Below, piece by piece: positions 1-18,053 of a stretch of DNA of 23,226 bases. The position numbers and the translations under genes are program-made. The stretch is taken from the IMG/VR virus record IMGVR_UViG_3300032288_000240, positions 1 through 23,226 of that record, one strand, 5' to 3'. Position 1 is the stretch's first letter; each line of letters begins with the position of its first letter. The stretch comes from a virus. The notes below the pieces were generated by a model. It ran no database searches. It was not told the origin of the DNA and saw nothing but the letters and a program-made list of their open reading frames with translations.

Positions 1-864
1 CTGAACGCCCTGTTCGGTCTGGAATATGCTCGTTACGGCGAAGAGCATAAGGAAATCTTTGATACCGAGACTTCGGAACGTTCGTTCGAAGAAGAAACCA
101 AGCTGTCCGGTTTTTCGGCTGCTCCGGTTAAGAACGAAGGTTCTGCCATTGCGTATGACAATGCGCAGGAAGTCTTCACTGCCCGCTACAACCACGAGAC
201 GATTGCTCTGGGTTTCTCGCTGACGGAAGAAGCGATTGAGGACAACCTCTACGATTCTCTGTCTTCGCGTTACACCAAGGCTTTGGCCCGTGCCATGGCG
301 TATACCAAGCAGACCAAGGCTGCGGCAATCCTGAACAACGGCTTCAGCGCCTCCTATCCGGGTGGTGATGGTGTTGCTCTGTTCAGTGCTTCGCATCCGC
401 TGGTTTCCGGTGGTACTAACTCCAACATCCCGGCTACCGCTGCCGACCTGAATGAAACCAGCCTCGAAGCTGCCGTAATTCAGATCGCGGCTTGGACGGA
501 TGAACGCGGCCTGCTCATCGCAGCTAAGCCCCGTAAGTTGGTTGTCCCGCCGAGCCTGATGTTCGTTTCGACCCGTTTGCTGGAGACTGAACTCCGCACC
601 GGCACTGCCGATAACGACATCAACGCTCTGAAGAGCAACGGTTCGATCCCGGAGGGTTACACTGTTAACCACTTCCTGACCGACACCGATGCTTGGTTCC
701 TGACCACGGATGTCCCGAATGGTCTGAAGCACTTCGTCCGTTCGCCCATGGCGAACAGCATGGACGGCGACTTCGACACCGGTAACGTTCGTTACAAGGC
801 CCGCGAGCGTTATTCGTTCGGCTGGTCTGACCCGCTGGGCATGTACGGCTCGGCTGGTGCCTAA
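1..864 (+). CDS. Major capsid protein, Mu gpT-like (5' truncated)
   Basis: The reading frame is open from base 1 to the stop at 862-864, so the N terminus lies outside the window; 287 codons are visible. The protein matches what I know of Mu gpT-like HK97-fold capsid proteins. Visible signatures are a FSLTEEAIEDNLYD helix region, FSASHPLVSGGT, a DERGL segment, VVPPSLMF, a GTADND loop, LTDTDAWFL and a C-terminal RYKARERYSFGWSDP block. It forms the icosahedral shell. The portal, protease or scaffold and terminase genes are presumably upstream. A strong intrinsic terminator follows within 10 bases, fitting a gene whose transcript level is set apart from those downstream. Seen: sequence motifs and position. 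Known: family role. Inferred: that this is the only capsid subunit. Confidence 0.9.
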   Translation: MNALFGLEYARYGEEHKEIFDTETSERSFEEETKLSGFSAAPVKNEGSAIAYDNAQEVFTARYNHETIALGFSLTEEAIEDNLYDSLSSRYTKALARAMAYTKQTKAAAILNNGFSASYPGGDGVALFSASHPLVSGGTNSNIPATAADLNETSLEAAVIQIAAWTDERGLLIAAKPRKLVVPPSLMFVSTRLLETELRTGTADNDINALKSNGSIPEGYTVNHFLTDTDAWFLTTDVPNGLKHFVRSPMANSMDGDFDTGNVRYKARERYSFGWSDPLGMYGSAGA

Positions 865-2051: not shown

Positions 2052-2792
2052 GTGGCGGCAACTAAGGGTTACGAACTAGCGGGAAGGCGGCTCTTCGTCG
2101 CTCTGCCAGCCTACGATTTCAAGGTTTCCTTGAAGTTGGCGGTGTCGTTGGCTAGCTTTGCCCAGTCCGCAGGGCAGCACGGTGTCAGTATCCAGATAGG
2201 CAGTATTTGCGGTTGTTCGGTGGTTTCCCGGGTCCGCAACCTGCTGGCTAAGGACATGCTGGAGTCCGACTGCACGGACCTGCTCTTCATTGATTCCGAC
2301 ATTAACTTCGAACCGGACGACGTTTTCCGGCTTATGGCTTGGGCTTCGGACCCCAAGAAGGGCATCGTCGCCGGGGTTCCCCGCACGCGCAGCGAAGACA
2401 AGGTCTACATTACCGACCTAGACTACGACGAGAACGGCCAGCTGACCATGAACGGTATGGGCCTAGTACGTGCGAAGCGGGTGGCTACTGCCTTCATGAT
2501 GGTCCGCCGCGAAGTCTTCGAAGTCCTGTCTTCCAAGCACCCTGAGTGGGAATACGACGACAAGCGGACTGACCGCCGCCTGAACGCCATGTTCGACTTC
2601 AAGGTCACCGCCGAGGGCTACATGGGGGAGGACTTCCTCTTCTGTGACCGCGTCCGGGCCGAAGGCTTCGAAGTCTGGATCGACCCCACCATCAAGCTGG
2701 GTCACATGGGCGTGCAGGAGTATAAGGGTGCTTTCGGTACCGATGTCCTCTACCCCATGATCGTCCCAGACCAGAAGGTGTCAAATGGCTAA
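2052..2792 (+). CDS. GT-A fold glycosyltransferase (family 2-like)
   Basis: 246 residues from a GTG start, five bases after the preceding stop; the conserved core RRLFVALPAYD begins at residue 12, so a much later start is unlikely. No strong Shine-Dalgarno is visible. FIDSDINF (79-86) holds the DxD-type metal and nucleotide-sugar site (D81, D83). GEDFLFCDRVR (192-202) fits the acidic catalytic-base motif of GT-A enzymes, and H218 in LGHMG fits a second metal ligand. VVSRVRNLLAKDML (57-70) is typical of phage members. It should transfer a sugar from a nucleotide sugar, presumably in the host cytoplasm. The acceptor is unknown: virion protein, host envelope glycan and modified DNA are all possible. 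Its place among head genes favours a virion target, as inference only. Confidence 0.8.
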   Translation: MAATKGYELAGRRLFVALPAYDFKVSLKLAVSLASFAQSAGQHGVSIQIGSICGCSVVSRVRNLLAKDMLESDCTDLLFIDSDINFEPDDVFRLMAWASDPKKGIVAGVPRTRSEDKVYITDLDYDENGQLTMNGMGLVRAKRVATAFMMVRREVFEVLSSKHPEWEYDDKRTDRRLNAMFDFKVTAEGYMGEDFLFCDRVRAEGFEVWIDPTIKLGHMGVQEYKGAFGTDVLYPMIVPDQKVSNG

Positions 2793-3039
2793 GTCCCCGG
2801 CATGGACACGCAAAGAAGGTAAGTCTGAAAAGGGCGGTCTGAACGCCAAGGGCCGTGCTTCCTACAATGCTGCCAACCCCGGGAAGCCCGGTCTCAAGCG
2901 CCCCCAGCCTGAAGGTGGTGCCCGCAAGAAGTCATTTTGTGCCCGGATGTCCGGGATGAAGAAGAAGCTTACTAGCGCCAAGACCGCTAACGACCCTAAT
3001 AGCCGCATCAACAAAAGCCTTCGTGCGTGGAACTGCTGA
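2785..3039 (+). CDS. DUF6321-like small basic protein
   Basis: 84 residues, overlapping the end of the glycosyltransferase gene by 8 bases, so probably translationally coupled. The start MAKSPAWTRKEGKS, the GGLNAKGRASYN block (residues 18-29), RKKSFCARMSGMK (47-59) and the ending DPNSRINKSLRAWNC match what I remember of the DUF6321 family of phage proteins. It is strongly basic, with two cysteines (C52 and the C-terminal C84). The family has no established function. Its recurrence in late phage operons suggests a minor virion or nucleic-acid-binding component, which I cannot test here. Confidence 0.8.
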   Translation: MAKSPAWTRKEGKSEKGGLNAKGRASYNAANPGKPGLKRPQPEGGARKKSFCARMSGMKKKLTSAKTANDPNSRINKSLRAWNC

Positions 3040-3040
3040 C

Positions 3041-3292
3041 ATGAACGATATTGTTGTTGTGTGGAACGTGATCTTGAGCGGGATAGTGTCGGTTATGGGT
3101 TTCTTGGTTAAGGGCAAGTTTGACGAGCTAGACCGGCTTGGTATCCTTATGAACAGAACCCGGGAAGAGATTGCCCGGGACCATATTACTAGGGCGGAGT
3201 ACAGCCGTGATCTTGACAAACTGGGTGACCGCTTTGATGCGGCTTTTCTACGGCTTGAAACCAAAATCGACGAAATTAACAAAAAAGGCTAA
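3041..3292 (+). CDS. Small membrane protein with C-terminal coiled coil
   Basis: I choose the ATG at 3041, two bases after the previous stop, over an in-frame GTG at 3023 that would lie inside the upstream gene. The 83-residue product begins with a hydrophobic stretch (IVVVWNVILSGIVSVMGFLV, residues 4-23) that should span the membrane. A charged helical region with heptad character follows (KFDELDRLGIL to LETKIDEINKKG). This layout is seen in holin-accessory, XhlA-like and spanin-type proteins, but no lysis gene is adjacent and there is no lipobox. It could instead be a minor virion protein. The gene at 15282-15539 has the same plan. Confidence 0.65.
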   Translation: MNDIVVVWNVILSGIVSVMGFLVKGKFDELDRLGILMNRTREEIARDHITRAEYSRDLDKLGDRFDAAFLRLETKIDEINKKG

Positions 3293-3296
3293 GACC

Positions 3297-3632
3297 ATGA
3301 AGAAATACGCTGACGGTGGTAACGTAGCTTCTGGTACCCCTAACTACGGGTTTAACCAGATGAACCCCGCTTCGGGCCCGGTGGGCACGAATATGCCAAC
3401 CCAGAACCCCGGAATGGGCATTAACCCCCCGGTGTTTAGTCCTCAGGGCCCCATGACGGGTCGTCCGTCTATGAATACGGGTCTGGCTCGCGCTGCTGAA
3501 GTCAGTGGCCGCGCCTTCAAAAAGGGCGGTAAAGTTAAGGCCAAGGCCAAGAGCGCCCCGGCTAAGAGTTCAGCTTCCCGTCGTGGTGACGGTATCGCCA
3601 CAAAAGGCAAGACAAAAGGAAAGATGGTCTAA
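3297..3632 (+). CDS. Small basic KKGG/DGIATKGKTK protein, copy A
   Basis: The true start is the ATG at 3297, with an A-rich AAGG stretch (3281-3288) upstream; the frame is open further upstream but only through the preceding gene. The 111-residue product is lysine-rich in its second half and Gly/Pro/Asn-rich in its first. Motifs in order: KKYADGG (2-8), GRPSM (55-59), TGLARAAEVSGR (61-72), AFKKGGKV (73-80) and, at the extreme C terminus, DGIATKGKTKGKMV (98-111). The same motifs recur in a different order in the next gene, which it overlaps by one base. No enzyme signature is visible. A nucleic-acid-binding or packaged virion peptide is plausible but unproven. Confidence 0.75.
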   Translation: MKKYADGGNVASGTPNYGFNQMNPASGPVGTNMPTQNPGMGINPPVFSPQGPMTGRPSMNTGLARAAEVSGRAFKKGGKVKAKAKSAPAKSSASRRGDGIATKGKTKGKMV

Positions 3633-3985
3633 TGAAAAAGTCTAACAAGAAGATGGGTGCGCTTAAGGACATGATGGGCCGTGCTATGGCTGCTCGCGCT
3701 GGTCGTGGTGCGATGGCCGCTCCCGCTGCTCCGATGGGCATGGGCATGAAGAAGGGTGGTTCGTTCCGCTCTTCCACTGACGGTATTGCCACGAAGGGCA
3801 AGACCAAGGCCAAGCAGGTTAAGATGGCTGCTGGTGGTATTCCGGGTCGTCCCGCGATGACTGGTTTGAACCGCGCTGCTGAGATGAGTGGCCGTACCAT
3901 GCCGACCACGGGTCGCCCTGATATGGCTGGCCGTGCCTATAAAAAGGGTGGCATGGCAAAGGGTGGCATGAAGGGCTGCAAGTAA
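3632..3985 (+). CDS. Small basic KKGG/DGIATKGKTK protein, copy B
   Basis: 117 residues starting in a TAATG overlap with the previous gene. It is Met-, Gly-, Ala- and Lys-rich and strongly basic. Motifs: MKKGGSF (39-45), DGIATKGKTKAK (50-61), KMAAGGIPGR (64-73), TGLNRAAEMSGR (77-88), GRPDM (94-98) and AYKKGGMAKGGMKGCK at the C terminus. All main modules are shared with the upstream protein, but DGIATKGKTK precedes RAAExSGR here and follows it there. That points to duplication with module reshuffling. Function unknown; the composition suggests binding to nucleic acid or an acidic surface. Confidence 0.75.
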   Translation: MKKSNKKMGALKDMMGRAMAARAGRGAMAAPAAPMGMGMKKGGSFRSSTDGIATKGKTKAKQVKMAAGGIPGRPAMTGLNRAAEMSGRTMPTTGRPDMAGRAYKKGGMAKGGMKGCK

Positions 3986-3986
3986 T

Positions 3987-4496
3987 ATGCGCCCTTCTCG
4001 TGGTATGGGGGCCGTTAAGGCTTCCAAAATGCCTAAGGCTAAGACGATCACCCGCAAGGATGATCCGAATGAGGTTACCATGTACGCTAAAGGTGGCAAG
4101 GTGAAGAAGTACGCTGGCGGTAGTCCCGACACGGTTAAGGGAGGCTTTGACCGGATTAGAGACATTATGGACCGCCCGCGTCCGAAGGCTGGACCGAAGA
4201 AGGAAAAGCCCCTTGAGCGCCTGCCTGTTAGCGATGAGGACATCGTGGGTAAGCAGCCTCTGGTTACGGACGACAAGGGGAAGGAATACATCCCCGAAAT
4301 CAACCGTAAGGCCAAGGGTGGCAAACTCAACATTGCCAAGGCTATCAAGAAGCCCGGTGCTCTCCGTGCCAGCCTTGGTACCAAGAAGGGCGAGACAATC
4401 CCCGCCAAGAAGCTGGCTAAGGCTGCTAAGGCCCCCGGTAAGCTTGGTCAGCGGGCTCGTTTTGCTGAGATGCTGAAGGGCTTTAGGAAGAAGTAA
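3987..4496 (+). CDS. Basic protein with conserved KPGALRASLG...IPAKKL domain
   Basis: 169 residues, starting two bases after the previous stop. The N-terminal part carries the local KGG motifs (MYAKGGKVKKYAGG, residues 32-45). A charged linker spans about 55-105, followed by KAKGGKL (108-114). The C-terminal block (about 118-166: KKPGALRASLG, KKGETIPAKKLAKAAKAP, RARFAEMLKGF) is a compact helical motif I know from many uncharacterised phage proteins. The protein is very lysine-rich. The conserved block may be a docking or DNA-binding element, but no function is established. It belongs to the same run of small basic genes as its neighbours. Confidence 0.78.
   Translation: MRPSRGMGAVKASKMPKAKTITRKDDPNEVTMYAKGGKVKKYAGGSPDTVKGGFDRIRDIMDRPRPKAGPKKEKPLERLPVSDEDIVGKQPLVTDDKGKEYIPEINRKAKGGKLNIAKAIKKPGALRASLGTKKGETIPAKKLAKAAKAPGKLGQRARFAEMLKGFRKK
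4485..4490 (+). promoter_or_regulatory. Ribosome binding site supporting a GTG start
   Basis: AGGAAG ends 6 bases before the GTG at 4497, which directly follows the TAA of the upstream gene. This site supports GTG at 4497 as the start of the DUF5872-like gene, whose family homology begins immediately. Confidence 0.6.
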
Positions 4497-4892
4497 GTGG
4501 GCCACACGGATGAGGGCAAGTGGAAACGTGTTGTCGCCAGTGTGAAAGCTGGCGACAAAGGCGGCAAACCGGGTCAATGGTCTGCCCGTAAAGCACAGCT
4601 TGCTACTCAGCGGTACAAGAAGTCTGGTGGCGGCTACAAAGGCCCCAAGACTGAAGCCCAGAAGTCCCTGTCCAAGTGGACCAAGGAGGACTGGGGTACT
4701 AAGTCTGGGAAACCCTCCACACAGGGGTCTAAGGCGACAGGCGAGCGGTATCTGCCTAAAGCTGCTCGTCAGTCCCTTTCCTCGGCTGAATATGCTGCTA
4801 CTACTAAAGCAAAGCGGGAAGGCACAGCCAAAGGCAAGCAGTTCGTTAAGCAACCCAAGTCTATCGCCAGTAAAACGGCAAGGTACAGATGA
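4497..4892 (+). CDS. DUF5872-like protein
   Basis: 131 residues from a GTG directly adjoining the upstream stop. The whole length fits the DUF5872 family as I recall it: WKRVVASVKAGDKGGKPGQW (9-28), SARKAQLATQRYKKSGGGYKG, SLSKWTKEDWGTKSGKPS, GERYLPKAARQSLSSAEYAAT and a final KTARYR. It is strongly basic. The family occurs in phages, large DNA viruses and some bacteria and has no known activity. Near full-length conservation with many invariant Trp, Tyr and Gly residues implies a folded domain rather than a disordered tail. The 3' end overlaps the next start by four bases (ATGA). Confidence 0.85.
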   Translation: MGHTDEGKWKRVVASVKAGDKGGKPGQWSARKAQLATQRYKKSGGGYKGPKTEAQKSLSKWTKEDWGTKSGKPSTQGSKATGERYLPKAARQSLSSAEYAATTKAKREGTAKGKQFVKQPKSIASKTARYR

Positions 4893-5530
4893 CAACGCAG
4901 TTCAGAAACAGTCGGGGTGGAGGGTACGCGACCTCTGCTATGTCTAGGGCCACCCCGCCGTCTTCGAACCCATATGCGCAGGGGTACGTTCGGCAACAGC
5001 CACAATTTAATCCCTATGCGTATCGGCCACCCCAGCCAGTGCAGCAGACGCAGCAGCCTGCTAATCCTATATACCCCCCGCCTCCGCAGCAGTCGTACCC
5101 ATCTCCGACCATGGATTTTTTACAGAATACTATGGCACCCCAACCTGCTCAGCCGGTGACCCAACCCCCGCAGCAGTCGTACCAGCCCCAAGCGCCGGTA
5201 ACTCAGCCTAATAGTGGTTTTTTTGGGTCTATAGGGGGTTACACACCCTCGTATCCGTCGGGACTGAATCCGGGCATGGCCCCGGCTCCGATGGCACCGC
5301 TTGGCGATACGCAACCGCCGTCACAGGCCGCGCCTTCGCCATTTGGTGGTTTTCCTGCGGTGCCTACTGACACCGGATATTACGGGCCGCCTAATCCCAA
5401 TGCGCCCATGGTGCCGATACCCCAACGTGATAGCGGTCTTTTTGCGTCTATGGGGGCAATGTCGCCCGGGTTCAACGGCCCGTACGACCCCAACGTGCCT
5501 TTTTCGGGTTACACGGGGTACAACGCATGA
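4889..5530 (+). CDS. Pro/Gln-rich low-complexity virion-associated protein
   Basis: 213 residues starting in an ATGA overlap and ending in another ATGA overlap with the adaptor gene, so translation is probably coupled on both sides. Residues 20-105 are dominated by Pro, Gln, Tyr and Ser (NPYAYRPPQP, PPPPQQSYPSP, PPQQSYQPQAP). The second half is Gly/Pro-rich with a duplicated motif, NSGFFGSIGG (108-117) and DSGLFASMGA (181-190). It should be largely disordered. I recognise no family. Position between head-type and connector genes suggests a virion or assembly role; a flexible linker or scaffold is a guess. Confidence 0.65.
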   Translation: MTTQFRNSRGGGYATSAMSRATPPSSNPYAQGYVRQQPQFNPYAYRPPQPVQQTQQPANPIYPPPPQQSYPSPTMDFLQNTMAPQPAQPVTQPPQQSYQPQAPVTQPNSGFFGSIGGYTPSYPSGLNPGMAPAPMAPLGDTQPPSQAAPSPFGGFPAVPTDTGYYGPPNPNAPMVPIPQRDSGLFASMGAMSPGFNGPYDPNVPFSGYTGYNA

Positions 5531-6237
5531 CCACTTCAGGCACCACAACCTTTAACCTAGACCTCAATAATCTGGTCGAAGAAGCCTTTGAGCGTTGCGG
5601 TGCTGAGCTGCGCACGGGTTACGACATGCGTACGGCGCGGCGTAGTCTGAACCTGTTGACAATAGAGTGGGCAAATAAGGGGATAAACCTGTGGACCATT
5701 GAACAGGGGTCGATCCCTATGGTTCAGGGTACGGTTACCTACAGCCTCCCGGTGGATACTATTGATCTGCTGGACCACGTTATTCGTACGCAGTCGGGTA
5801 TCAACCAGACCGACATTAACATTACCCGTATCAGCGTAGATACTTACTCCACCATCCCCAACAAACTGACCCAAGGCCGACCCATTCAGGTCTGGATCAA
5901 TAGGCAGTCGGGGGCTACCGAGCCAACCACGGGGGTGACTTACCCGAACATCAATGTTTGGCCTTGCCCCGACCAGAGTAACTACTATACATTCGTCTAT
6001 TGGCGTCTGCGGCGCATCCAAGACGCAGGCAACGGCGTCAATACTCAGGACATCCCGTTCCGTATGCTCCCGGCCTTGGTGGCTGGGCTGGCCTATTATC
6101 TATCCTTGAAGGTCCCTGACGCGCTCAACAGGGTAGAGATGCTCAAGGCAATGTACGACGAAGCATGGCAGCTGGCGGCAGACGAGGACCGTGAAAAGGC
6201 GTCCTTGAGACTTGCCCCGCGCCAAATGTTCTTCTAG
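5527..6237 (+). CDS. Head-tail adaptor-like protein (gp4/gp11 type)
   Basis: 236 residues. The N-terminal helical part (LVEEAFERCGAELRTGYDMR, RSLNLLTIEWANKGINLW), the beta region with VDTIDLLDHVIRTQSG and INITRISVDTYSTIPNK, and the C-terminal helical block (LPALVAGLAYYLSLKVPD, DEAWQLAADEDREKASLRLAP) fit the tail accessory or adaptor proteins of short-tailed phages (P22 gp4, T7 gp11). Those attach beneath the portal and help seal packaged DNA. Both of those are shorter (about 170-200 residues). The fold assignment is from overall pattern, not a decisive motif. A second adaptor-type protein lies at 7026-7688, so the two may form successive rings or have distinct roles. Confidence 0.72.
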   Translation: MTTSGTTTFNLDLNNLVEEAFERCGAELRTGYDMRTARRSLNLLTIEWANKGINLWTIEQGSIPMVQGTVTYSLPVDTIDLLDHVIRTQSGINQTDINITRISVDTYSTIPNKLTQGRPIQVWINRQSGATEPTTGVTYPNINVWPCPDQSNYYTFVYWRLRRIQDAGNGVNTQDIPFRMLPALVAGLAYYLSLKVPDALNRVEMLKAMYDEAWQLAADEDREKASLRLAPRQMFF

Positions 6238-6246
6238 GGGGCGGCT

Positions 6247-6684
6247 ATGCCCAACAGGTTCGCCTCTGGTAAAAAAGCCATCGCCATGTGCGATAGGTGC
6301 GGCTTTCAGTACATGCTGAAGGAGCTGCGGCAGCTCGTCATTAAGACTAAGAACGTGAATATCTTGGTTTGCCCCACCTGCTGGGAACCCGACCAGCCCC
6401 AGCTCCAGCTGGGTATGTACCCCGTGGATGACCCACAGGCCCTACGTAACCCAAGACGGGATACCACGTACCTACAGGCTGGTTTGACTGGTTTGCAGGT
6501 TCTGACGATTAACCCCCCAGACCCCACGGCGGCTATATCTTTTGGTGATCCCTCGGGCGGTAGTCGTGTTATACAGTGGGGATGGGGTCCGGTGGGGCTT
6601 AACAACCCCCTTCAACTTTCGGGCCTTACTGATAATTTGCAGGCTACCGGTGCCATAGGCACTGTAACCGTGACTACTTCCTAG
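6247..6684 (+). CDS. Zinc-ribbon virion protein with C-terminal ATGAIGTVTV tag
   Basis: 145 residues, 9 bases after the adaptor stop. Residues 1-48 hold a probable zinc ribbon: C15-x2-C18 and C42-x2-C45 (MCDRCGFQY and VCPTCWEPDQP). A conserved segment, LGMYPVDDPQALRNPR, follows; this N-terminal part is common in aquatic phages beside adaptor genes. The C-terminal half is Gly/Pro/Thr-rich and ends in ATGAIGTVTVTTS, matching the repeat unit that occurs 13 times in the protein at 11761-12879. Function unknown; a structural zinc site in a connector-associated protein is likely. The C-terminal tag is the notable feature. Confidence 0.75.
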   Translation: MPNRFASGKKAIAMCDRCGFQYMLKELRQLVIKTKNVNILVCPTCWEPDQPQLQLGMYPVDDPQALRNPRRDTTYLQAGLTGLQVLTINPPDPTAAISFGDPSGGSRVIQWGWGPVGLNNPLQLSGLTDNLQATGAIGTVTVTTS

Positions 6685-6693
6685 GAGTACGAG

Positions 6694-6876
6694 ATGGCTA
6701 AGAGCGATATTAAACAGGATAAGGCCATGATTAAGGCCATGATCCATAAGCACGAGAAGAACGCCCACCCGGGTAAGCCGCTGACGAAGCTGGCTAGGGG
6801 CGGCAAGACTAACATGCAATTGAAGACGTTGGGTCGTGGTCTCGCCAAGGTGGCGAACCAGAAGAAGGGTAAGTAA
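6694..6876 (+). CDS. Small conserved basic phage protein
   Basis: 60 residues, 9 bases after the previous stop, with a GGAG-type site (TAGGAGTACGAG) before the ATG. The pattern KQDKAMIKAMIHKHE (7-21), HPGKPLTKLARGG and LGRGLAKVANQ is one I recognise from short phage proteins located between adaptor genes. It is highly basic and mostly helical, with one KLARGGKT motif like the GG motifs of the upstream cassette. No function is known. Confidence 0.72.
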   Translation: MAKSDIKQDKAMIKAMIHKHEKNAHPGKPLTKLARGGKTNMQLKTLGRGLAKVANQKKGK

Positions 6877-7026
6877 ATGGCTACCACCACATACAGACAG
6901 CCTAAGCCGGTGCCGATTAACGGCAATAGCGGGTACCCGAATAACGTTGCTAATACCCAGACCCTGAAGACTCGGGGCACTGGTGCGGCGACCAAGGGTA
7001 CCAATAGCAGCAAAAAGATGGGCTGA
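6877..7026 (+). CDS. 49-residue protein with TRGTGAATKGT motif
   Basis: ATG at 6877 directly follows the TAA of the upstream gene, and the TGA at 7024-7026 overlaps the adaptor ATG by one base. That tight packing on both sides is the main support for such a short gene. The product starts MATTTYRQPKPVPING and ends with TRGTGAATKGTNSSKKMG. RGTGAATKG-type endings are familiar from small proteins of many phages. It is basic, lacks acidic residues and is probably disordered. Its role is unknown; it may be a small virion peptide. Confidence 0.68.
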   Translation: MATTTYRQPKPVPINGNSGYPNNVANTQTLKTRGTGAATKGTNSSKKMG

Positions 7027-7688
7027 TGAACTACGCCACGCTTGTCGAAACGATAGAGGCTTATACTGAGAACGACTTCCCGGACACGGCGGGGTCTGGC
7101 GGTCTTACGTCTGCGGAGCAGGTAGCTACGTTCGTTGGGCAGGCTGAGCAGCGCATCTACAATAATGTGCAGTTGCTCGAACTGCGTAAGAACGTGACGG
7201 GCAATGCCACGGCTGCAAACAAGTATCTGAGCGTGCCGTCCGACTGGCTGGCTAACTTCTCACTTGCTGTGATCGACCCGACTAGTGGGGCGTACGAATA
7301 CCTGCTGAACAAGGATGTTAACTTCATCCGCGAGGCGTTTCCGTACCCGGCGACCACTGGCAAGCCCACCCACTATGCCATGTTTGACCAGACTTCGTAC
7401 ATCCTCGGCCCTACGCCGGATGCAAGCTACGAAATGGAACTGCACTATTTCTACTATCCGCAGTCTATTGTGACCGCTAGCACGTCGTGGTTGGGTGATA
7501 ACTTCAGTTCTGCCCTGCTCTATGGCTCTCTTCTGGAAGCCTATACCTTCATGAAGGGTGAGGCTGATGTCCTTGCTCAGTACCAGAAGCGGTACGATGA
7601 AGCGCTGGCGCAGCTCAAGGAGCTGAGTGAAGGTAAGAACCGTCAAGATATGTATCGCACGACTCAAGTTAGGTACCCCGTCAGATGA
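7026..7688 (+). CDS. Head-tail adaptor protein, SU10 type
   Basis: 220 residues starting in an ATGA overlap. Order of signatures: LVETIEAYTEND, EQVATFVGQAEQRIYNNVQLLELR (a long helix), a beta domain with KYLSVPSDWL, YEYLLNKDVNFIREAFP and KPTHYAMFD, then ELHYFYYPQSI, TSWLGDNFSSALLYGSLLEAYTFMKGE and a final helix YQKRYDEALAQLKEL. This is the layout of the adaptor family named for phage SU10 (gp11/gp4-like), which forms a dodecameric ring between portal and nozzle. It is complete, with no odd insertion. The stop overlaps the next start by four bases. Confidence 0.88.
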   Translation: MNYATLVETIEAYTENDFPDTAGSGGLTSAEQVATFVGQAEQRIYNNVQLLELRKNVTGNATAANKYLSVPSDWLANFSLAVIDPTSGAYEYLLNKDVNFIREAFPYPATTGKPTHYAMFDQTSYILGPTPDASYEMELHYFYYPQSIVTASTSWLGDNFSSALLYGSLLEAYTFMKGEADVLAQYQKRYDEALAQLKELSEGKNRQDMYRTTQVRYPVR

Positions 7689-11760: not shown

Positions 11761-12879
11761 ATGTTTGGTTTTTTCCCCTTTGCGGCAGATACCTTTGCTA
11801 GCACAGGTGCGGTAAGCAGCGTTTCTGTCTCCGTTAGTGTTACCGGGGTCGAAGGTACCGGTTCAGTCGGTACCGCAGCCGTTCAGGCTGCTGCTAATAC
11901 TACGCTAACTGGGGTCTCGGCTACTGGTTCAGTCGGTACCGTAACCACCCAAGCCGCTGCTAATACTACGCTAACTGGGGTCTCGGCTACTGGTTCAGTC
12001 GGTACCGTAACCACCCAAGCCGCTGCTAATACTACGCTAACTGGGATCGAAGCCACTGGTTCAGTCGGTACTGTAACAGTTCAAGCCATATCCTCAGTTT
12101 CTGTCCTTTTGACCGGGGTCTCAGCTGACGGCTTTGTGGGTACTGTGTCGGTCTCAGTTAGCGGCGCGATTATAGTCTTCCCCACCGGGGTCGAAGCCAC
12201 TGGTTCAGTAGGCACCCCCACTATCTACGCCGCTGCCAATACGAACGTAACCGGGGTCTCTGCTGACGGGTTTGTCGGGGCCGTAACAGTCCAAGCTGCC
12301 CAATCTGTGTCTGTGACCCTTACCGGGGTCTCGGCTACTGGTGCTGTTGGCACTGTTACGGTGGCCTTCCCGGCCTCTGTGTCGGTTACGGGGGTCTCGG
12401 CCACTGGGTCGGTAGGTACTGTAACCACCACTGCTAAGGCCAATGTTACCCCCACTGGGGTATCGGCTACTGGGTCTGTCGGCACAGTTGTTGCGGCTAT
12501 TCCCAAGCAAGTCACCCTTACCGGGGTCTCGGCTACAGGGTCTGTAGGCACAGCTACCGTGTCTTTGCCCAAGCTGGTTTCTGTTACCGGGGTCTCGGCC
12601 ACTGGGTCGGTGGGTGACATAGCTATATCCGGGGGGGCTACCGTCAACGTGACGGGGGTTCAGGCTACTGGCTATATCGCTAATGTGCTGGTTTGGGGTA
12701 TAATCAACGACAACCAGACACCAAACTGGCAGACCATAAACGACTCCCAGACGGTTACTTGGACACAGGTAAACGACGCAAATACAGTAACTTGGGCCCC
12801 TGTTGACGACTCTCAGACGGGTACTTGGGTACAAGTAAACGATGGAAATACAGTAACTTGGGTAGAAATCCCCACGTAA
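11761..12879 (+). CDS. 13-repeat beta-type virion protein (TGVSATGSVGTVTV repeats)
   Basis: 372 residues with an AGAGGGG site 5 bases before the ATG. After a short hydrophobic start, 13 units of the type TG(V/I)xATGSVGT begin at residues 28, 50, 72, 94, 118, 142, 164, 188, 210, 232, 254, 276 and 298. Spacing is 22 or 24 residues and never odd. The C-terminal part has Trp at 312, 323, 334, 345, 356 and 367, exactly every 11 residues, in (I/V)NDxxTVTW units. There is no cysteine and almost no charge in the first 300 residues. Alternating small and hydrophobic residues suggest a fibrous beta stalk, likely trimeric. Location between endolysin and a self-cleaving fibre suggests a fibre or adhesin. 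No enzyme motif is seen. Function inferred only. Confidence 0.8.
   Translation: MFGFFPFAADTFASTGAVSSVSVSVSVTGVEGTGSVGTAAVQAAANTTLTGVSATGSVGTVTTQAAANTTLTGVSATGSVGTVTTQAAANTTLTGIEATGSVGTVTVQAISSVSVLLTGVSADGFVGTVSVSVSGAIIVFPTGVEATGSVGTPTIYAAANTNVTGVSADGFVGAVTVQAAQSVSVTLTGVSATGAVGTVTVAFPASVSVTGVSATGSVGTVTTTAKANVTPTGVSATGSVGTVVAAIPKQVTLTGVSATGSVGTATVSLPKLVSVTGVSATGSVGDIAISGGATVNVTGVQATGYIANVLVWGIINDNQTPNWQTINDSQTVTWTQVNDANTVTWAPVDDSQTGTWVQVNDGNTVTWVEIPT
11842..12690 (+). repeat. Array of 13 in-frame TGVSATGSVGT repeats
   Basis: Thirteen coding units of 66 or 72 bases. Most carry GGGGTCTCGGC followed by ACTGG or ACAGG; variants encode GVEATGS, GVSADGF and GVQATGY. Confidence 0.9.
11890..12045 (+). 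repeat. Perfect 66-base tandem repeat
   Basis: Two identical 66-base copies (11890-11955 and 11956-12021) are followed by 24 identical bases of a third (12022-12045). The lack of synonymous change marks a recent duplication within the older array. Confidence 0.93.
12694..12876 (+). repeat. Trp repeat, 11-residue period
   Basis: Six tryptophans exactly 11 codons apart, in units such as NDSQTVTW and NDGNTVTW. Alternate units are more alike, giving a 22-residue super-period equal to that of the upstream array. Confidence 0.85.
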
Positions 12880-12888
12880 GGACCGAAA

Positions 12889-14106
12889 ATGGCTAGTACC
12901 TACAGTCCCCTAAAAATCCAGTTGATGACCACGGGTGAGAACACCACCACGTGGGGCAACGTTACCAATGTCAACCTAGGCACAGCTATCGAAGAGATGG
13001 TAACCGGGTCGTCGGATGTTACCTTTGCTAGTACTACAGTTACCTTGACGCTGACGGATACCAATGCATCCCAGACGGCGCGTCACCTGCGCCTTAATTT
13101 GACCGGCACTTCGGGCGGCGCACAGAACTTGATAGTTCCCGCCGTTGAGAAGGTCTACCTCGTCAACAACGGTTGCGCTGACGCAATCACGGTTAAGAAC
13201 TCCTCGGGCACAGGCACTGCGGTCCCTGCCGGTAAGACCATGTGGGTCTACAATGACGGCACAAACGTTACGAACGCTATTACCCACCTGACTTCGTTGA
13301 CACTTGCTGCGGCCCTTCCGGTGGCTAGCGGCGGTACGGGGCTGACCTCTACTCCGTCCAACGGCCAGATCGACATCGGCAACGGCACGGGCTTCACTCG
13401 CGCGGCTATCACTGCGGGCAGTGGTATCTCCGTAACAAACGGCTCTGGCACCATAACTATTGCGGCTACGGGAGGCAGCGGTACAGTTACTTCGGTTAAT
13501 GCAAGTGGCGGCAGCACAGGCCTGTCGTTCTCAGGCGGTCCGATCACAGGTAGTGGAACCCTGACACTGGCCGGTACACTGGCTGTTGCTAACGGCGGCA
13601 CGGGTGGAACGTCACAGGCTGCGGCGCAGTCTGCGCTCGGCGTGCCCTCCACTACGGGTTCTGGTGCCTCGGGCAACTGGGTTATTAACGTTACTGGCTC
13701 GTCCGCTAGCTGCACAGGTAACGCTGCAACAGCTACTACTGCCACTACAGCCACTACAGCTAACGCTTTGAACAGCAGTAATTCCTACACTGCCGTGGAT
13801 TTCACGGCCACATCTGACATGCGGTTGAAGGACGTTTATGGCTTTATTACCGATGCGCTGGATAAGGTGGACGCCTTAAACGGGTTCTACTACCGGAATA
13901 ACGATAAGGCTCGCTCGCTGGGTCAGGTCAAAGAAGAGCAGCAGGTTGGCCTGTCCGCCCAAGCTTTACAGGATGTCTTACCGGAAGCTATTAGCCGGTG
14001 GTCGGTTGATCCTGAGTATCTGGTTGTCGCTTATGACCGTGTTATTCCGTTGCTGGTCGAGGCAATCAAGGAACTGCGGGCTGAAGTTAAGGCGCTGAAG
14101 GGTTAA
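12889..14106 (+). CDS. Tail fibre with C-terminal S74 self-cleaving chaperone
   Basis: 405 residues. The N-terminal segment (YSPLKIQLMTTGENTTTWGNVTNVNLG) is a conserved fibre attachment domain. The middle has GGTG-type fibre repeats (LPVASGGTGLTS, VANGGTGGTSQAAAQSALG) and a TATTATTAN linker. The C-terminal part is a peptidase S74 intramolecular chaperone: SDMRLKD gives the catalytic Ser309 and Lys314, and FYYRNND, VGLSAQALQDVLPEAI and VVAYDRVIPLLVEAIKEL follow. In this family the chaperone trimerises the fibre and then cuts itself off just before the serine. About 97 residues would be released here. Fibre role and autocleavage are well supported by motif; the receptor is unknown. Confidence 0.9.
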   Translation: MASTYSPLKIQLMTTGENTTTWGNVTNVNLGTAIEEMVTGSSDVTFASTTVTLTLTDTNASQTARHLRLNLTGTSGGAQNLIVPAVEKVYLVNNGCADAITVKNSSGTGTAVPAGKTMWVYNDGTNVTNAITHLTSLTLAAALPVASGGTGLTSTPSNGQIDIGNGTGFTRAAITAGSGISVTNGSGTITIAATGGSGTVTSVNASGGSTGLSFSGGPITGSGTLTLAGTLAVANGGTGGTSQAAAQSALGVPSTTGSGASGNWVINVTGSSASCTGNAATATTATTATTANALNSSNSYTAVDFTATSDMRLKDVYGFITDALDKVDALNGFYYRNNDKARSLGQVKEEQQVGLSAQALQDVLPEAISRWSVDPEYLVVAYDRVIPLLVEAIKELRAEVKALKG

Positions 14107-15543: not shown

Positions 15544-17676
15544 ATGCCCCTGATTAAGCTCCAGTTCAAACCCGGTATCAACCGAGACCAGACTGACTAC
15601 TCCGGTGAGGGTGGTTGGTATGAGAGCGAGAAAATACGTTTCCGTTCGGGCTACCCCCAGAAGCTTGGTGGTTGGGTCAAGGCTACTACCAACTCTTTCG
15701 TCGGCGTAAGCCGCCAGATGTGGAACTGGATCACTACCTACGCGGACGACTTCCTTTCCTTAGGGACTGAGAAGAAGGTTTATATCGAGGCTGGCGGTGT
15801 TTTCTTTGATATCACCCCGCTACGTACATCTTCTCCTACGCTGTCGAGCCCTGACACAAATAACTGCGTGCAGACGGTGTCTGGGTCCCGCAAAGTAATT
15901 ATCAATCTAGGTGTCGCGCACAACGCAGACACTGGGTCCTACGTAACCATTGCCGGGGTTACAGGTACCGTTGGTGGCGTGCCCAACTCTGAAATCAACG
16001 CCAACCACGAGATCGTAGTTATCGACACCGACTCGTTTTACTTTTCGGTTACTACGGCTGCTACTTCTACTGTAGCTTCGGGTGGTGGAACGGCTATCAC
16101 TGTCAGCTTTGAAATTGCCCCCGGTAACGCACTAGCCACAGCCGGTTATGGTTGGGGTACTGGTGCTTGGGGTCGTGATGCTTGGGGTTTGGGTTCTACC
16201 ACTGGCGCGGTGTTTCTGCCGCAACAGGACTGGTGGTTTAACAACCTCGACAACGACCTTGTTATGAACATCCGCGACGGTGCGCCCTACTATTGGAGTC
16301 GTGGTACTGCTACGGACCCGACTGCGTCATTGGCTACCCGGGCTGTTACTTTGCAGGCTATTGCTACGGCTGATGGTTTCGACCCTAATGCGGTCCCCGT
16401 CAAAGTTATGCAGACCCTTGTGTCTCAGCAGGACAAGCATGTCCTTGCTTTTGGTGCGGTGCCTTATGGCAGCACTGACCCAGACGACTTTGACCCGCTC
16501 CTTATCCGGTGGGCCGACCAAGACAATCCCGGGCAGTGGACCCCTGCGGTTACAAATTCGGCTGGTTTCCTGCGTATATCTCGTGGCTCCCGTATCGCCG
16601 TCGCCCTGCCAACACGGCAGGAAATCTTGGTTTGGACCGACACCCACCTCTATACCTTGCAGTTTACTGGTACTACGGACGTGTTCAGTTTGCAGGAATA
16701 CGCAGACAACATCTCGATTATCTCACCCCGCGCCACCATAAGCGCCGCGAGTGTTACGTACTGGATGGGTCAAGATAAGTTCTATGCGTATTCGGGTCGT
16801 ATCGAGACGTTGTCCTGCACCCTGCGAAACCACGTGTTTGAAAACCTTAACTATAATCAGTCGGACCAGATTGTCTGCGGCACCAACGAGCAGTGGAACG
16901 AAGTCTGGTGGATGTACCCCAGCGAGGACTCCAACTGGAATAACAAGTACGTAATCTATAACTACCTAGACAAGATTTGGTACTACGGAACAATCCAGCG
17001 CACCGGTTGGTTGGACACACCCCTTCGGCGCTACCCGCAGGCAACGAATACGGCTGAAGACTCGGTAACAGCGACGATCACTGGGTCTATTGCTACCACT
17101 ACGCTAACCGTCACGGCTGTGACCGGGACAATACAGGTCGGCATGGTTCTGACTGGGAACGGCGTTAGTGCTGATACCTACGTCATTGGGCAGAAGACTG
17201 GCACTACGGGTAGCACCGGTACCTACGAGATCAGCCCGTCTCAGACGGTTATCGCTACTGCAATCACGGGGTCTATTGGCGCTCCCGGTTACCTGTACAA
17301 CCACGAAAACGGTGTTAACGACGACTCTATTGCGATGGAAAGTTCTATCCAGTCCAACGACTTTGATATCGAGGACGGGGAGCAGTTCATGCTCACCAGA
17401 CGTATTATACCTGATATCGACTTCGCAGGTTCCACGGCGACTGAGCCTGAGGCTACGCTTACGATACGCCCCCGTAACTTCCCCGGTTCGGCGTTTGCAG
17501 GTGATGCGTCGGACTCCCAACGGATAATTGAGACTTCGGTTGGTGTGTATACGGGGCAGGTCTTTGTTCGTGCCCGTAGTCGCCAGATGGCTCTGAAGGT
17601 CAGTTCGACTGTTCTGGGGGTCCAGTGGCAGCTTGGTGCTCCACGCCTTGAAGTTCGCCCCGATGGTAAACGCTGA
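15544..17676 (+). CDS. Tail nozzle / tubular protein (gp12/gp10-like) with inserted modules
   Basis: 710 residues. The start ([34 protein letters not shown] broken as [12 protein letters not shown], then [16 protein letters not shown]), the [14 protein letters not shown] region and the beta-propeller-like middle ([48 protein letters not shown]) identify the nozzle or DNA-stabilising family of short-tailed phages (T7 gp12, P22 gp10 type). It forms the tail tube end below the adaptor. Two modules look inserted: an FCCH-like domain at about residues 118-190 ([28 protein letters not shown]) and a TGSI module at 510-579 ([28 protein letters not shown]). The C terminus ([33 protein letters not shown]) is conserved. 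It overlaps the next gene by one base. Confidence 0.85.
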
Positions 17677-18053
17677 TGGCACTTACTGCGTTCAAGCACT
17701 CCCCACTGCCAAACCCGACGCAAGAGTACGACGCCCAGTACGTACGGCAGCTTATCCGGGTGATTGAGCTGTACTTCAACCAGCTGGACTCCCTGACACC
17801 CAACCAAGCCCAGTCTTACACAGCTGATGCGTTTATCGGGGGGACTATTACCCTTGGGAACTACACCAATGCAGAGAAGCTAGCCCTTACCCCGGCTACC
17901 GGGATGATGGTGTTCGACACGACCCTGAACCAGATTAGCGTGTACTACAGTGGTGGTTGGCGGGTCATAAGCACGGTCCCCAGTACAACGGTAGCTCCCA
18001 CGGGGGTCTCGGCCACCGGGTCTATAGGTACAGTTACAGTCTCCACCCCGTAG
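17676..18053 (+). CDS. Short fibre-like virion protein with C-terminal ATGSIGTVTV tag
   Basis: 125 residues starting in a TGATG overlap with the nozzle gene. Residues 1-45 include EYDAQYVRQLIRVIELYFNQ and LTPNQAQSY, a pattern I know from phage proteins following nozzle genes. Next come LTPATGMMVFDTTLNQISVYYSGGWR, a fibre-type motif found in many phage tail proteins. The last 17 residues, TGVSATGSIGTVTVSTP, are one copy of the repeat in the protein at 11761-12879. It is probably a tail-associated structural protein; its function is unknown. A 78-base non-coding gap follows it. Confidence 0.75.
   Translation: MALTAFKHSPLPNPTQEYDAQYVRQLIRVIELYFNQLDSLTPNQAQSYTADAFIGGTITLGNYTNAEKLALTPATGMMVFDTTLNQISVYYSGGWRVISTVPSTTVAPTGVSATGSIGTVTVSTP

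Follow-up and report, generated by a model that had tools for sequence, protein, structure and literature searches.

A C-terminal tag shared by small basic proteins between the capsid and adaptor genes of uncultured phages, a candidate signal for loading proteins into the head

Why would the genes that build a phage head be interspersed with genes for small, strongly basic proteins? The question is raised by the IMG/VR viral record IMGVR_UViG_3300032288_000240, which we analysed over its whole length of 23,226 bases (the window) and which starts inside a gene, making it a fragment of a phage genome. Seven basic open reading frames (ORFs), named here, like other genes of the window, by their first positions (2785, 3297, 3632, 3987, 4497, 6694 and 6877), lie among the capsid and connector genes, as an earlier note on this DNA had recognized. 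What that note lacked is a peptide, GG...SASKRxDG[IC]Ax[KR]GKT[KR]G[KR]xV (the tag), that is common to otherwise unrelated basic proteins. It was first noticed on reading the cassettes of close relatives, in which many unrelated genes finish in a near-identical peptide such as KKMAKGGSTASKRADGCATKGKTKGRFV. We give an even chance to the reading that the cassette supplies small internal proteins of the head, packaged alongside the genome and probably leaving together with it, and that the tag is their loading signal.

A common tag on otherwise unrelated basic proteins

Within the window, a DNA pattern for the tag matched twice, once where 3297 ends and once in the interior of 3632, and never in 100 shuffles. 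Together with a second form of the tag (form B) in 6877, the features are:

3567..3629, + strand: C-terminal tag of 3297, SSASRRGDGIATKGKTKGKMV (DNA core 3588-3619; chance expectation 0.00)
3779..3811, + strand: tag core of 3632, DGIATKGKTKA, internal, 58 residues before the C-terminus
6973..7023, + strand: tag form B of 6877, RGTGAATKGTNSSKKMG; related proteins carry RGTGAATKGxMARGPMA

The 3632 product itself ends in GGMKGCK, as in a longer-tailed class of tags.

Scanning IMG/VR with the DNA pattern returned at least 120 stretches. Among the 204 loci examined, which included sets gathered by 4497 (L002-L081) and by the tag pattern (L089-L204), 124 held a total of 261 distinct tag occurrences, with one to five tagged copies per locus. 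The scan pattern imposes no position within a protein; 247 of the 260 copies with a closed end nevertheless lay within 30 residues of the C-terminus, 139 of them exactly 4 residues away. When 58 representatives were aligned, the columns that never varied were DG.A..GKT and a single G of the GG hinge. Form B gave 51 pattern matches, all at most 21 residues from the C-terminus, with a distance of exactly 8 residues in 46 of them. The bodies to which the tag is attached are diverse: once the tag was removed, 235 bodies fell into 104 clusters at E 1e-3, including 86 singletons. Across 2063 genes (overlapping loci of the same contigs included), 272 tag matches were observed compared with 0 in 20 shuffles.

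The tag is kept as amino acids. When copies within a locus were compared, in 212 pairs, synonymous differences were seen at 651 of the 1272 codons that specify invariant residues; only 6 pairs had no difference. This saturation rules out a recent DNA duplication of the tag and argues against a nucleotide signal. All 252 distinct tagged proteins had an isoelectric point (pI) above 9, to which the tag itself adds charge; without the tag, the bodies had a median net charge of +11 per 100 residues, compared with -0.7 for untagged genes. A charge-hydropathy rule predicted disorder for 227 of 246 bodies and for 538 of 1651 untagged genes. The tag is also fused to DUF6321 in six loci and to the 6694 type in two (L004 and L029), fusions that tie different families of the cassette together.

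Several observations bear on the limits of this motif. Small proteins in L106, L141, L158, L186 and L204 have the tag close to the N-terminus and then LGDSGPxxAIQxGGKGG or a similar sequence (45-48 residues after the tag core), a second architecture of the same motif. The motif family may also be wider than counted: HTVC023P gp51 (L213:6981-7364) has the tag-like RGGGAAVRGMGFKGVF at its C-terminus and a protein of DSL-LC04 (L214:1315-1542) has RGMGCATRGGG at its N-terminus, both phages being relatives without the strict tag. One of four matches in a genome collection, in L207, had no credible ORF end there and was treated as chance. NCBIfam had no model for any of the ten proteins tried. Literal tag strings occurred in no paper of the literature searched, and among the papers listed for packaging signals, capsid targeting and internal proteins there was no description of such a tag.

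Tagged genes sit in the head interval

To locate the tag in genomes, we used 12 long records with capsid and adaptor genes in line: 11 were viral contigs, 31.9-63.8 kb long, and one came from a metagenome-assembled genome. In these records, the stretch from the major capsid gene to the adaptor gene contained 32 of 33 tags, on the strand of those two genes; the exception, in G014, was just past the adaptor. Two more records agree with this placement, G009 having three tags upstream of the adaptor with the capsid gene at the opposite contig end, and G010 having two tags, with the capsid not found. A reversed control pattern never matched in the long records. Identical tag copies in G013 and G018 were counted as near-duplicates. 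The pattern used for the long records and for seven cultured phages needs AAR after the third glycine, so copies with arginine there are missed.

Because other loci had been chosen by 4497 or by the tag, prevalence was taken only from 80 loci gathered by the connector gene 5527, of which 41 have at least 2.5 kb upstream and 61 form the denominator of downstream counts; this set shares contigs with the earlier ones (L002, L011, L144, L175; L287 is L003). Tags upstream of the adaptor, 85 in all, were present in 37 of the 41 loci; among the 19 loci whose upstream stretch reaches 5.5 kb or more, 18 had one. Downstream of the adaptor, none of the 80 loci yielded a copy. A C-terminal peptide common to many proteins and restricted to the head interval resembles a sorting signal and fits packaging and co-ejection.

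The tag also occurs in a cultured phage. Exactly one strict tag is present in the 65-kb genome of Pag-Yong1, which infects Planktothrix and also encodes a DUF6321 protein, UMO76000.1. The tag closes UMO75986.1, whose gene sits between those annotated 'minor capsid protein' and 'portal-adaptor protein'. This is the same capsid-adaptor place as that of the tagged genes of the window, and the product ends in ...ASGGMIGRDGCAKRGRTKGRFI; it differs in being the only strict tag of its genome and in having 308 residues and a body without a PHROG match. A tblastn search of cultured phages with short tags, which has little power, gave no match, and Pag-Yong1 was found later by its capsid.

The cassette is conserved and interrupted

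Since positions 1..864 encode a capsid protein and 5527 is an adaptor homologue, the cassette lies between capsid and neck genes. In genome order, with counts given for the adaptor-collected loci, the region contains:

1..864, + strand: major capsid protein gene, 3' part, running off the window start; matches PHROG 371 (major head protein) at 7.7e-19 and is 72% identical to the major capsid protein of Pag-Yong1
2785..3039, + strand: DUF6321 protein, 84 residues, net +17, predicted all-helical; Pfam PF19846; tag-fused in 6 relatives; upstream of the adaptor in 29/41 loci
3023..3292, + strand: acidic protein inside the cassette, 89 residues, pI 5.8, net -1; homologue upstream of the adaptor in 32/41 loci
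3297..3632, + strand: tagged basic protein, 111 residues, net +15; called from ORF and charge; no Pfam, PHROG or NCBIfam family
3632..3985, + strand: tagged basic protein, 117 residues, net +22; called from ORF and charge
3987..4496, + strand: basic protein with GG motifs, 169 residues, net +28; upstream of the adaptor in 41/41 loci
4497..4892, + strand: fusion of two basic modules, 131 residues, net +23, PHROG 17747-like at residues 10-48 and PHROG 14910-like at residues 53-131; upstream of the adaptor in 36/41 loci
4889..5530, + strand: Pro/Gln-rich neutral protein, 213 residues, no Lys, pI 7.9; no Pfam or PHROG family
5527..6237, + strand: portal-adaptor (connector) gene; 46% identity to the DSL-LC04 'adaptor protein' and 35% to the Pag-Yong1 'portal-adaptor protein'
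6247..6684, + strand: conserved neck-region protein, 145 residues, function unassigned, Cys pairs by eye; homologue downstream of the adaptor in 61/61 loci
6694..6876, + strand: basic protein of HKHEKNAHPGKPLTKLARGG type, 60 residues, net +13; downstream of the adaptor in 53/61 loci
6877..7026, + strand: basic protein ending in the second tag form, 49 residues, net +7; downstream of the adaptor in 56/61 loci
7026..7688, + strand: second connector/tail-tube-like gene, flanking the cassette; PHROG 2941 virion structural protein (2.6e-19); 61/61 loci

All seven basic genes of 49-169 residues proposed in the earlier note exist, with pI 10.5-11.6. Its picture of a single basic cassette needs qualification, however, as the seven are broken up by 3023-3292, 4889-5530, 5527-6237 and 6247-6684. 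Junctions described as overlaps or gaps of 0-4 bases are indeed mostly short, ranging from overlaps of 8 bases to gaps of 4 bases, the exceptions being a 17-base overlap between 2785 and 3023 and a 9-base gap before 6694. The products had also been called lysine-rich, which does not extend to 3297 and 6877, with only 10-12% Lys. By eye, the acidic 3023..3292 product has a hydrophobic N-terminal stretch and a heptad-like tail.

A comparison of gene order across related genomes, proposed earlier as a check, showed that homologues keep their order in many related contigs, with 3987 the most regular member of the cassette. The ratio of nonsynonymous to synonymous polymorphism (pN/pS), measured for four small basic genes and one acidic gene (3297 and 3632 being left out), was 0.18-0.41 (0.20 for 3987) compared with 0.18-0.25 in neighbouring connector genes. 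The measured cassette genes are thus under purifying selection, and the kept gene order and pN/pS rule out that the ORFs arose by chance. In one relative, an HNH-endonuclease-like gene (identified by eye) lies within the cassette (L008:6200-6727), which suggests that the slot takes up mobile genes too.

DUF6321 and a second, apparently mobile module

Two family assignments had been made in the earlier note. That of 2785 to DUF6321 is firm, at 67.4 bits against a cut-off of 28.5 (E 1.7e-18, profile 1-72 of 72). We rejected that of 4497 to DUF5872, as its match to PF19197 (15.4 bits, E 0.029) falls below the Pfam cut-off of 27.5. Foldseek matched 4497 to a DUF5872 protein of Chrysochromulina ericina virus with E 0.027 and TMq 0.51; given the sub-cut-off score and this weak match, 4497 is at most a distant DUF5872 relative. 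Better fits were PHROG 14910 (1.8e-34, profile 5-79 of 80) and PHROG 17747 (2.3e-14, profile 25-63 of 63, second half only). In MEP401 the 17747 module is a separate gene adjoining a second gene that matches the C-terminal part of 4497. Homologues of 4497 with ~77-82% amino-acid identity are present in L014-L016, L022 and L024, where none of the other cassette genes is found, and the tag pattern was unmatched in G005 and G006, phages with a 4497 homologue and without other cassette genes. The 4497 module seems to move between unrelated phages. A proposed relationship of its C-terminal module to the 'KW' module of cyanophage virion proteins was unsupported (hhalign probability 26.5%).

AlphaFold2 models of the DUF6321 protein and 4497 were locally confident, with predicted local distance difference test scores (pLDDT) of 88.2 and 87.6, and had predicted template modelling scores of only 0.54 and 0.57, respectively. 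Among the few PDB chains offered by Foldseek (5 and 25), the best Z scores were 2.0 for DUF6321 and 3.0 for 4497, giving no informative solved match and showing neither a known nor a new fold. Sequence searches of the PDB with 2785, 4497 and the tag alignment returned nothing informative, three hits to the tag alignment at E ~0.4 being at chance level. No histone-like or HU-like family was matched in Pfam, PHROG or NCBIfam searches. In the literature searched, DUF6321 was not mentioned and DUF5872 appeared only as a table entry; a term search of two papers on T7-like cyanophages, one by cryo-electron microscopy and one on purification, likewise returned nothing on the DUF6321 gene. The DUF6321 protein of MinM2 (OQ594354 9188-9433; L086:4001-4246) is deposited as a 'RecA-like recombination protein', apparently a misannotation.

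Links to virion proteins

DUF6321 forms the C-terminus of S-CREM2 gp137 and of S-SCSM1 gp29. Mass spectrometry detected S-CREM2 gp137 with 4 unique peptides and 4.1% coverage (PMC10665884, Table 3), and S-SCSM1 gp29 is deposited as a 'virion protein' of a phage for whose virion 45 proteins are reported in the part of the study covered (PMC9602691). In a third carrier, SSM1_115 of S-SM1 (T4-GC 119), which is not claimed as a virion protein, the C-terminal DUF6321 is, as in the other two, homologous to 2785 of the window. These cyanophage carriers differ from 2785 in having ~490-520 residues, in lying near or between terminase subunit genes and in having no tag in the sequences examined.

The largest family of tagged bodies matches the N-terminal part of PHROGs 22033 and 25121, labelled virion structural protein. 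The PHROG 16759 module, found in phiKZ-like KTN4 gp204, BUCT555 and PhiPA3 gp316 (PhiPA3 by one search only), belongs to the same body family as the commonest tagged proteins; it occurs as stand-alone genes of 52-58 residues, with no virion-protein label in KTN4 or PhiPA3. In BUCT555 the same body module lies directly after the portal gene and two genes before the major capsid gene. Single modules of pelagiphages match parts of long cyanophage proteins, and HTVC023P gp52 matches PHROGs 12753 and 3477, both of which also match S-SCSM1 gp29. The earlier proposal of packaging with the genome therefore has indirect support from DUF6321 carriers that are detected or annotated as virion proteins in two T4-like cyanophages, from virion-labelled PHROGs of a body family and from the restriction of the tag to the head interval. 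From these observations we infer that the tagged proteins themselves are in the virion, that the tag serves to load them and that their bodies act on DNA or the host after ejection.

How a loading signal could work

The most likely mechanism would be that the tag docks proteins onto a component of the assembling head, such as the scaffold, inner shell or portal/adaptor. One loading route could then serve unrelated basic bodies, by analogy with the capsid-targeting sequence of T4 internal proteins, and the bodies would be cargo co-ejected with the genome. In T4, as described in the parts of two papers covered here, the internal proteins IPI, IPII, IPIII and Alt are diverse small proteins with a short common targeting peptide; they are encapsidated, and IPI* is injected (PMC3012670, PMC5694885). 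The resemblance is of a short conserved peptide on otherwise unrelated proteins, for which a capsid-targeting role here would be by analogy. The Dar proteins of phage P1 (DarA, Hdf, DdrA, DdrB, Ulx and DarB) are likewise reported, in the part of the study covered, as internal head proteins that are co-ejected and tied to head assembly (PMC12810830). Their incorporation, in the same description, is ordered and dependent on DarA and Hdf, unlike the tag system, and they are likened to it by description rather than by sequence. We know of no short terminal tag shared by the P1 Dar proteins.

More broadly, and with somewhat less than even confidence, we propose a general C-terminal packaging code in which a ~20-residue tag lets freshwater and marine phages load interchangeable basic effectors, new bodies being acquired by tag fusion in an expandable capsid-adaptor slot and the cargo, ejected with the DNA, protecting it or acting on the host. 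Sorted internal head proteins are a known kind; a C-terminal, widely shared signal would be new. Such a tag explains a slot full of unrelated Lys/Gly-rich genes. If it is a loading signal, internal and probably ejected proteins would be recognizable by sequence alone in many uncultured phages, 'hypothetical proteins' would become testable candidates for early host or defence interactions, and the tag would offer a short handle by which proteins of choice could be brought into phage heads, much as the T4 targeting sequence is used. Even as a motif for an assembly partner, the tag predicts that its carriers bind one and the same component of the head.

Several findings weigh against a loading signal. 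The T4 signal is N-terminal, comprises 10-20 residues and is cleaved by gp21, whereas the present tag is C-terminal (internal in 3632) and contains GKT. To our knowledge, no prohead protease has been described for the tag-bearing phages, in which protease genes were not searched for. The capsid of CRP-902 is related, and the corresponding interval of that phage contains none of the cassette genes; 4 of the 41 adaptor-collected loci have no upstream tag, one of them with more than 5.5 kb of sequence. The tag was found in none of seven cultured phages tested that have relatives of DUF6321 or 4497, a count that is weaker than it looks because the DNA pattern also misses the Pag-Yong1 copy, whose sister MinM2 is among the seven. 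We found no published proteomics of a tagged protein; the mass spectrometry concerns DUF6321 carriers without the tag. Of these, S-CREM2 gp137 is acidic overall (net -20), which, with its low coverage, makes it weak evidence for the basic module, and the module may not be what was seen.

Alternative explanations

In the main rival reading, the tagged proteins would be neck assembly factors, the tag binding the portal/adaptor or cement and the proteins acting in head-neck joining or DNA packaging before leaving, rather than travelling as cargo. Tagged genes directly precede the portal-adaptor gene, and 6877 immediately precedes the window's second connector gene and keeps its place downstream of the adaptor in most loci; the disorder predicted for most bodies would also be possible in flexible assembly factors. 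We nonetheless consider this unlikely, as 104 clusters of bodies, present in anything from one to five copies per locus, are too variable for an assembly interface, and CRP-902 makes a related head without the cassette. That same phage also speaks against genome condensation, in which histone-like proteins would supply counter-charge and the tag would be merely part of a nucleic-acid-binding surface. The strongly positive bodies favour such a role, as does the contact of T4 internal-protein lysines with packaged DNA reported in the part of that work covered (PMC3012670). By arithmetic, however, neutralizing a 53.7-kb genome (the size of G001) would take each of the seven proteins in ~860 copies, making bulk condensation less likely, and nonspecific binding would need no invariant DG.A..GKT at the C-terminus; judged from sequence, we rate condensation as more doubtful than a role in assembly.

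Somewhat lower again we place late host-directed proteins that are never packaged, acting in lysis or in take-over of host RNA or the nucleoid, with the tag targeting a host structure. The fast turnover of bodies resembles host arms races, and single modules adjoin non-structural genes in other phages, such as a DnaA-like gene in HTVC035P; yet nearly all tags lie in the head interval, and DUF6321 carriers are detected or labelled in virions. It is very improbable that the tag is a nucleic-acid element, such as a ribosome-binding or recombination site, that is translated incidentally. Tagged genes do often overlap the next start (a gap of -1 in 49 and -4 in 28 of 260), and in the window AAAGGAAAGATGG precedes the next ATG, but synonymous positions are saturated, so that amino acids are kept and bases are not, and the Gly codons are mostly GGT/GGC, from which no Shine-Dalgarno sequence arises. 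Scarcely credible is a short P-loop of small nucleoside triphosphatases (NTPases): GIATKGKT fits the Walker A pattern GxxxxGK[ST], but the bodies are unrelated, Pfam, PHROG and NCBIfam searches matched no NTPase family, and a tag that often stands 4 residues before the C-terminus has no space behind it for the helix that follows a P-loop. With a pattern fit and no NTPase context, we set this assignment aside.

Neighbouring genes and related phages

The closest cultured relatives of the capsid gene are those of MinM2, Pag-Yong1 and Pra-JY27 (72%), HTVC023P (64%), DSL-LC04 (62%) and CRP-902 (58.5%). The records of MinM2, Pag-Yong1 and Pra-JY27 (OQ594354, OL906435 and PP438419) each have 65,014 bases, identical capsid scores and three different deposited hosts, and may be one phage. 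Genes homologous to 5527 carry adaptor or portal-adaptor labels in the deposited records of DSL-LC04, CRP-902 and Pag-Yong1. Between decoration-like genes and the cassette, 2052-2792 is a glycosyltransferase-like gene (PHROG 1574; Glyco_transf_21 marginal), a homologue of which precedes the adaptor in 24 of 41 loci. Farther along the window, the product of 11761-12879 contains TGVSATGSVGTVT-type repeats, one more copy of which ends the 17676-18053 product; these are probably virion surface repeats. The C-terminus of the 12889-14106 product, SDMRLKDVYGFITDALDKVDALNGFYYR, resembles by eye an intramolecular tail-fibre chaperone of the peptidase S74 type.

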